64,000 bases of DNA from contig CALDZK010000010.1 in NCBI GenBank assembly GCA_937944145.1, positions 62,001 through 126,000 of the forward strand, written 5' to 3'. This DNA is from an uncultured Candidatus Altimarinota bacterium. Its GTDB lineage: Bacteria > Patescibacteriota > Gracilibacteria > BD1-5 > UBA6164. Of the stretch, positions 54,104-54,276 are shown one piece after another (positions within the stretch are counted from its first letter, which is position 1; each line of letters starts with the position of its first letter). The position numbers and the translations under genes were made by a program. Below the pieces are notes generated by a model. That model made no database searches, had not been told where the DNA came from, and worked only from the letters and a program-made list of their open reading frames with translations.

Positions 54104-54140
54104 AAAAAAATTGTAAATAATAAATCCATAAAAAAAATCC

Positions 54141-54198
54141 CTTCTCAAGAAAAAGGGAAATATTTCTACATAACAGAAAATACCTTTATCTTGAGAAG
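54141..54198 (-). terminator. Terminator-like attenuator hairpin upstream of proS
   Basis: On the minus strand CTTCTCAAGA pairs with TCTTGAGAAG, with further pairs inside (AAAGG/CCTTT and TATTT-CT/AG-AAATA). GGATTTTTTTT follows the stem. It sits between the leader peptide and proS. The upstream CCCTTCT could alternatively pair with AGAAGGG of the 3' arm, the logic of an antiterminator. Confidence 0.65.
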
Positions 54199-54242
54199 AA
54201 AAAGTAGAAGGGTTGCAGGTGCCAGTTCTGTTTTGTATTCAT
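54186..54242 (-). CDS. Candidate aromatic leader peptide (18 aa) upstream of proS
   Basis: ATG-initiated and 18 codons long, ending TAA: MNTKQNWHLQPFYFFFSR. The run Phe-Tyr-Phe-Phe-Phe sits at the base of the attenuator stem, and the stop codon lies inside it, as in Phe operon leaders such as pheL and pheM. A sigma-70 promoter (54249-54276) ends six bases before the ATG. No Shine-Dalgarno is possible, so this would be a leaderless mRNA. Regulation of proS by Phe supply is unexpected; see findings. Confidence 0.5.
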   Translation of the reverse strand: MNTKQNWHLQPFYFFFSR

Positions 54243-54248
54243 GACAGT

Positions 54249-54276
54249 ATGATATTTTTAAACAAGATTTTGTCAA
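54249..54276 (-). promoter_or_regulatory. Promoter of the leader peptide-proS transcript
   Basis: On the minus strand TTGACA (54276-54271), 16 bases, TATCAT (54254-54249). The T tail of the upstream lipoprotein terminator runs into the -35. The transcription start would fall on or next to the leader ATG at 54242. Confidence 0.65.

Follow-up and report, generated by a model that had tools for sequence, protein, structure and literature searches.

A predicted ribosome-mediated attenuator with a single proline codon in front of proS in a genome of Patescibacteria using genetic code 25

Organization of the proS leader region

The window, the whole stretch of 64,000 nucleotides analysed here, is a part of contig C10 of a genome of 1.18 Mb with 35.5% G+C, in which TGA is read as glycine (code 25). 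The proS gene for prolyl-tRNA synthetase lies on its minus strand (Table 1), and the proS matches that carry names come largely from Candidatus Gracilibacteria assemblies. The promoter TTGACA-16 nt-TATCAT was found in front of proS, six bases ahead of the ATG (54242-54240) of an 18-codon ORF ending with the stop at 54188-54186, as the earlier note had described, and gave the top match (11/12) across 48-60 kb. Since the lipoprotein-like gene upstream carries its own terminator, with a T tract overlapping the TTGACA of the leader promoter, the leader forms a separate transcription unit. Between its promoter and its terminator there is thus one short, translated-looking ORF, which is conserved in relatives (12 genomes of the family).

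The terminator predicted between the leader ORF and proS was confirmed as a hairpin with a tract of eight T, 26 nt before the proS ATG (54103). Its 5' arm had been proposed to overlap the Phe codons and the stop. This does not apply to the arm of the local terminator, but a longer alternative stem, UUUUCUUCUCAAGA:UCUUGAGAAGGGA, has a 5' arm (54201-54189) that spans codons 14-18 and ends right before the stop. The competing pairing of CCCTTCT with AGAAGGG is possible, as was suggested, and the antiterminator 2:3 of the window copy is weak (-4.1 kcal/mol). As a whole, the 116-nt leader is more stable than its shuffled versions (z=-2.8).

Table 1. Features of the proS leader region, in positions of the window
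Feature	Position	Strand	Remarks
proS, prolyl-tRNA synthetase, 561 aa	52418..54103	-	TIGR00409; 10 in-frame TGA=Gly
Leader promoter, -35 element TTGACA	54271..54276	-	kept in most relatives
-10 element TATCAT	54249..54254	-	6 nt upstream of leader ATG
Leader ORF, 18 codons, MNTKQNWHLQPFYFFFSR plus stop	54186..54242	-	11 relatives have a homologous ORF ahead of proS
Codon 11, CCC (Pro), putative prolyl-tRNA sensor	54210..54212	-	CCC11 in 12/12 leaders; predicted switch point
Segment 1, pyrimidine-rich arm over Phe14-Arg18, partner of segment 4	54189..54201	-	
Segments 2:3, antiterminator hairpin AAAGG...CCUUU plus inner stem	54152..54187	-	2:3 complementarity kept across relatives
Segments 3:4, intrinsic terminator hairpin TCCCTTTTTCTTGAGAAGGGA, -8.8 kcal/mol	54138..54158	-	
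Terminator T8 tract	54130..54137	-	U tract in 12/12 leaders
Long-range helix AACAGAA (54232-54226):UUCUGUU (54178-54172), closing the leader loop (tentative)	54172..54232	-	

Conservation of the leader and of its alternative pairings

In 12 family genomes the module of promoter, ORF and terminator precedes proS, and in three of these a small ORF intervenes. In G012 and G017 this ORF, which is conserved, lies between the terminator and proS, indicating that the module tracks the proS operon and not its immediate neighbour. The intervening ORF, of about 80 aa and without a Pfam match (L155/L158 in G012 and G017; L172/L189 in G015), is co-directional with proS in several relatives and is absent before proS of the window. 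The comparison of alignable relatives had been named in advance as the check on which the earlier reading could fall, and both the peptide and the stems were found to be kept in them. The pattern AACNNGNACCTGCAACCC gave exactly 8 mismatch-free matches in 48 whole family genomes, all of them immediately ahead of proS; the reversed pattern, used as control, gave zero in the same 48 genomes. A covariance model was trained on nine leaders, leaving out that of G015; it recovered this leader, MNKQLNWHLLPLIPSCLRKD, before the proS operon (E=8e-13), again with CCC as codon 11. The more distant proS leaders are those of G039 (MIKQYKIFLHPVDPKN), G041 (MLKLYKTFLHPVNPKY) and G006 (MFTQIFTYLLPVFP), and a shorter one, MILAPVHSCV with CCC as codon 5, was found in G027; the hairpin and the U tract are present in all 12 leaders and in G027. 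In many of the more distant relatives no recognisable leader was seen before proS, none of the weak covariance-model matches in 380 genomes across the phylum could be confirmed as a further proS leader, and the viral contigs searched yielded no relative. In two genera, short ORFs with a CCC codon in CCC..GGG mini-hairpins were observed before proS (L018, L129 and L130 in genus g20; L016 and L020 in genus g2); these loci are without a clear terminator and possibly represent a different form of control.

The start of the leader message is less uniform. Shine-Dalgarno (SD)-like motifs precede 5% of starts genome-wide, not above control positions, and an SD-less start is therefore normal in this genome. 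The leaderless start proposed for the window fits six of the eight close leaders, as the TATNNT-N6-ATG spacing is also present in G007, G012, G013, G017 and G018, but not the more distant ones; in leaders without this spacing, the -10 element is 20-35 nt from the ATG.

Within the peptide, the invariant codons are CTG (Leu9) and CCC (Pro11), the latter being codon 11 in 12/12 leaders from four genera. A second Pro codon stands at codon 14 in nine of the 12 main leaders. Several regulatory codons are usual for attenuators, although not definitional, and were not found in these 12, with one Pro codon in three leaders (window, G011 and G016) and two in the other nine. Compared with its relatives, the window leader no longer has the second Pro, contains two additional codons and is the sole carrier of Phe-Tyr-Phe-Phe-Phe (codons 12-16, four Phe plus one Tyr). 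Conserved regulatory Phe codons of the pheST-like type are absent, the Phe run being confined to the window genome, where it largely encodes the pyrimidine-rich hairpin arm, segment 1.

For the pairings we employed a permutation test, in which blocks 1-4 of each species were paired with the partner block either of the same or of another species. The own-species partner gave better energies for the terminator 3:4 (p=0.0005) and for the antiterminator 2:3 (p=0.001), indicating that the terminator and the competing antiterminator are both maintained by covariation. The own-species advantage was weak for 1:4 (p=0.025), and the control pairings 2:4, 1:3 and leader:3 stayed at chance level in this test. 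Relatives have helices comparable to the tentative long-range one that would join codons 3-6 to the stretch past the stop; the permutation result for it (p=0.06) is only suggestive.

These results bear on the reading that the promoter-to-terminator segment is an independent gene for a small RNA or small protein, with the proS promoter located after the terminator. The segment does have a promoter and a terminator of its own, and the 26-nt gap to proS is AT-rich and contains TACAAT, 7 nt upstream of the ATG, but no promoter match was found from the terminator to proS. The module also keeps synteny with proS or with the operon of that gene across 12 genomes, its alternative pairings are conserved and its predicted switch falls on Pro (see below), so that we regard an independent gene as very unlikely.

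Predicted stall position and cognate leaders

In order to locate the switch, the ribosome footprint was masked codon by codon, and we calculated what it costs in energy to hold open the foot of the terminator, defined as the four bases that abut the U tract. In the window copy, the open foot cost 5.2 kcal/mol in the free RNA and 9.7 kcal/mol with the ribosome either at the stop or at Phe14-16, and the cost fell to 0.0 when the ribosome stood at Phe12 (edge +12) or Pro11 (edge +15); all are equilibrium values for what is a co-transcriptional process. The terminator is thus predicted to be destabilised with the ribosome at codons 11-12, and neither at Phe14-16 nor at the stop. In the relatives the minimum lies mostly at Pro11 or a neighbouring codon; for G006 it lies two codons earlier with the +15 edge, and for G027 at Pro5 and its neighbouring codons. 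As references, the leaders of E. coli K-12 were subjected to the identical calculation, which recovered their known regulatory codons, Trp10-Trp11 for trpL and Thr10-Thr11 for thrL.

Under a stricter criterion, in which the entire 3' arm of the terminator is held open, the cost for the window copy was at least 7 kcal/mol and the minimum moved to Phe12-Tyr13; its modelled switch thus looks weak by this criterion and normal by that of the four-base foot. When the genome was screened on the stricter criterion, 5/157 candidates passed, among which thrS ranked second, and the window proS leader failed. Because the window copy is weak or shifted and fails this screen, the conclusion is less firm for the window genome than for the family.

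The thrS gene of the same genome (contig C2:19161-19290, locus L206) carries a Thr-codon leader, MRLALLVTTPTTLSLEGFL, with a terminator 22 nt upstream of the gene, and this leader was also picked up by a genome-wide scan without the requirement for T-tract pairing. In 11 relatives, leaders with Thr runs stand before thrS or the operon containing it, and for 8/8 thrS leaders tested the switch was predicted within or beside the Thr run; in G015 the Thr leader precedes thrS, and in G018 a peptidase-S51 gene plus thrS. The use of cognate codons on two synthetase genes of one genome is a strong argument for Pro, not Phe, at proS.

The proS covariance model brought up other leaders at thrS, asd-type and HMGL-like loci. 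The leader MQINLTTKTKTAHLLRG of G049 (L192, C39:12664-12770, minus) contains four Thr codons and is followed by a terminator and then by an aspartate-semialdehyde dehydrogenase gene. The leader MYAKNIIISIIILSTRRGLL of G068 (L199, C42:1306-1417, minus) contains six Ile codons, likewise has a terminator and stands before a gene which is HMGL-like (citramalate-synthase-like) by Pfam. In G001 (L197, C190:6115-6232, minus), the leader MRLALLDTLNSTYLLLK, with a start similar to that of thrS leaders, is followed by a gene for a HAD-phosphatase resembling ThrH/SerB. The window genome also carries a candidate Ile/Leu leader, MRENVFFIQIIILLSYA (C3:12878, minus), with a strong predicted switch (rank 1 in the screen), before the gene for a 346-aa protein without a Pfam match.

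The earlier note had left open whether aromatic supply or Pro starvation at the single codon controls proS. That Phe or Tyr supply acts through the aromatic run in pheST-style is suggested by the four Phe and one Tyr at codons 12-16 of the window copy, with Phe12 and Tyr13 at or beside the predicted switch point; this run is, however, found in no relative and largely codes for segment 1, Phe14-16 is predicted to give no more antitermination than the stop, and the thrS sister leader employs its cognate amino acid. The aromatic signal is very probably wrong, and as a general explanation we give it hardly any weight. Under some footprint assumptions, modelled stalls at Phe12 or Tyr13 could open the terminator of the window copy, and there may be a minor aromatic input in the window genome alone. 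Starvation for Pro at the single codon is in good agreement with the invariance of CCC11 and the predicted switch point at codons 11-12, and this codon is very probably the sensor.

The fixed Leu9 and Pro11, with their invariant CTG and CCC codons, and the constant peptide length ahead of the stall could also point to a ribosome-arrest peptide, in which a ligand, and not shortage of Pro-tRNA, would trigger stalling in the exit tunnel through the conserved LxP motif. Ten residues, however, hardly reach into the tunnel, the G027 leader retains CCC while differing in sequence and length, and the thrS leaders follow the cognate rule without an LxP motif. An arrest peptide is therefore improbable, although marginally less so than the aromatic signal or the independent gene.

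A T-box-like riboswitch reading tRNA-Pro directly was also considered, since AACUGGCACC is similar to the T-box UGGNACC and T-box-like motifs lie ahead of aspS and glyS in the window genome. The UGG is replaced by AGG in G012 and G013 and by UUG in G018, and this lack of conservation largely refutes the T-box; in addition, the specifier loop of stem I is absent and stem I does not fit in the available space. UGGC suits a G73 tRNA, whereas tRNA-Pro of the window genome ends ACCA (A73). The proS leader gave no Rfam T-box match, and no match to RF00230 above the cut-off was obtained in the 48 family genomes. The chance of a T-box here is close to nil. The motif upstream of aspS (C1:6140-6440) is AGGUGGCACC with a possible GAC specifier, and that in front of the glyS operon (C3:9353-9600), which opens with another ORF, is GGGUGGAACC; neither reaches the Rfam T-box model. 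One-mismatch matches of the leader pattern in relatives look like tRNA genes, and tRNA mimicry or antisense was rejected, as the core ACCTGCAACCC, although similar in sequence to the complement of certain T arms, is not complementary to tRNA-Pro of the window genome.

Proposed mechanism and relation to known attenuators

By the features tested, the proS leader is a ribosome-mediated attenuator, and its response to proline is predicted; the leader-peptide attenuation of proS proposed in the earlier note is well supported. We consider it highly probable that proS is under transcription attenuation of the classical ribosome-mediated type, in which one rare CCC codon serves as the sensor of uncharged tRNA-Pro. 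Transcription would start at or beside the leader ATG, where the ribosome would load without an SD site and then move in coupling with RNA polymerase. When Pro-tRNA is plentiful, the ribosome would pass CCC11, reach the stop and cover segments 1-2, so that the 3:4 hairpin would form against the U8 tract and transcription would end before proS, leaving terminated transcripts. When Pro-tRNA is scarce, the ribosome would wait at CCC11 and keep segment 1 from pairing on the U-tract side, and segment 2 would be free for segment 3; the terminator would then stay unclosed and read-through into proS would follow.

The sensor codon CCC, which would be read by tRNA-Pro(UGG), represents 9.5% of the Pro codons of the window genome, and the sole tRNA-Pro found has the anticodon UGG (ARAGORN, which found only 29 tRNAs, another being possible). 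CCC has been reported to be the slowest Pro codon and to cause stronger pausing upon deletion of its specialised tRNA, ProL (PMC8129111), and a one-codon sensor fits with this. On the other side, theory predicts a low attenuator sensitivity with few regulatory codons (PMC1183508), and in this respect the single codon counts against our reading.

Taking the other cognate leaders together with that of proS, we lean toward a clade-wide set of attenuators in code-25 Patescibacteria, with Pro for proS, Thr for thrS and asd and Ile for the citramalate-synthase-like gene, in which proS would be controlled via one CCC, with only tRNA-Pro(UGG) and a leaderless message. Such a set, if true, would represent a general amino-acid-starvation response in host-dependent bacteria. 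To our knowledge, almost nothing is known of gene regulation in Patescibacteria, and the proS leader offers a concrete candidate for a starvation sensor in bacteria that are believed to rely on hosts for building blocks. As a natural minimal one-codon attenuator it bears on the theoretical link between codon choice and sensitivity, and the thrS leader provides a built-in specificity control within the same genome.

In the open-access literature, we found neither a leader-peptide attenuator described for proS nor any account of transcription attenuation in Patescibacteria. The T-box riboswitch (RF00230) is the usual device on synthetase genes of Firmicutes and shares the goal of the proS leader, i.e. 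turning the synthetase gene on via antitermination when the tRNA is uncharged; the proS leader differs in having no stem I, specifier or conserved UGGN, its predicted sensor being the translating ribosome. The E. coli trp and thr operon leaders show the same stall-position energy signature in the identical calculation, but belong to biosynthetic operons and have repeated regulatory codons and SD-led translation. Among synthetase genes, ribosome-mediated attenuators have been described for pheST in gammaproteobacteria and for trpS and leuS in Streptomyces (PMC1262725). These share with the proS leader the promoter, the short ORF with cognate codons, the antiterminator/terminator pair and the synthetase gene behind. 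The proS leader differs from them in serving proS and tRNA-Pro, in belonging to Patescibacteria with genetic code 25, in having usually one or two Pro codons and no run, and in a predicted leaderless start without an SD site. The kind of control is known, while the target gene, the phylum and the single-codon sensor look new, as far as checked.
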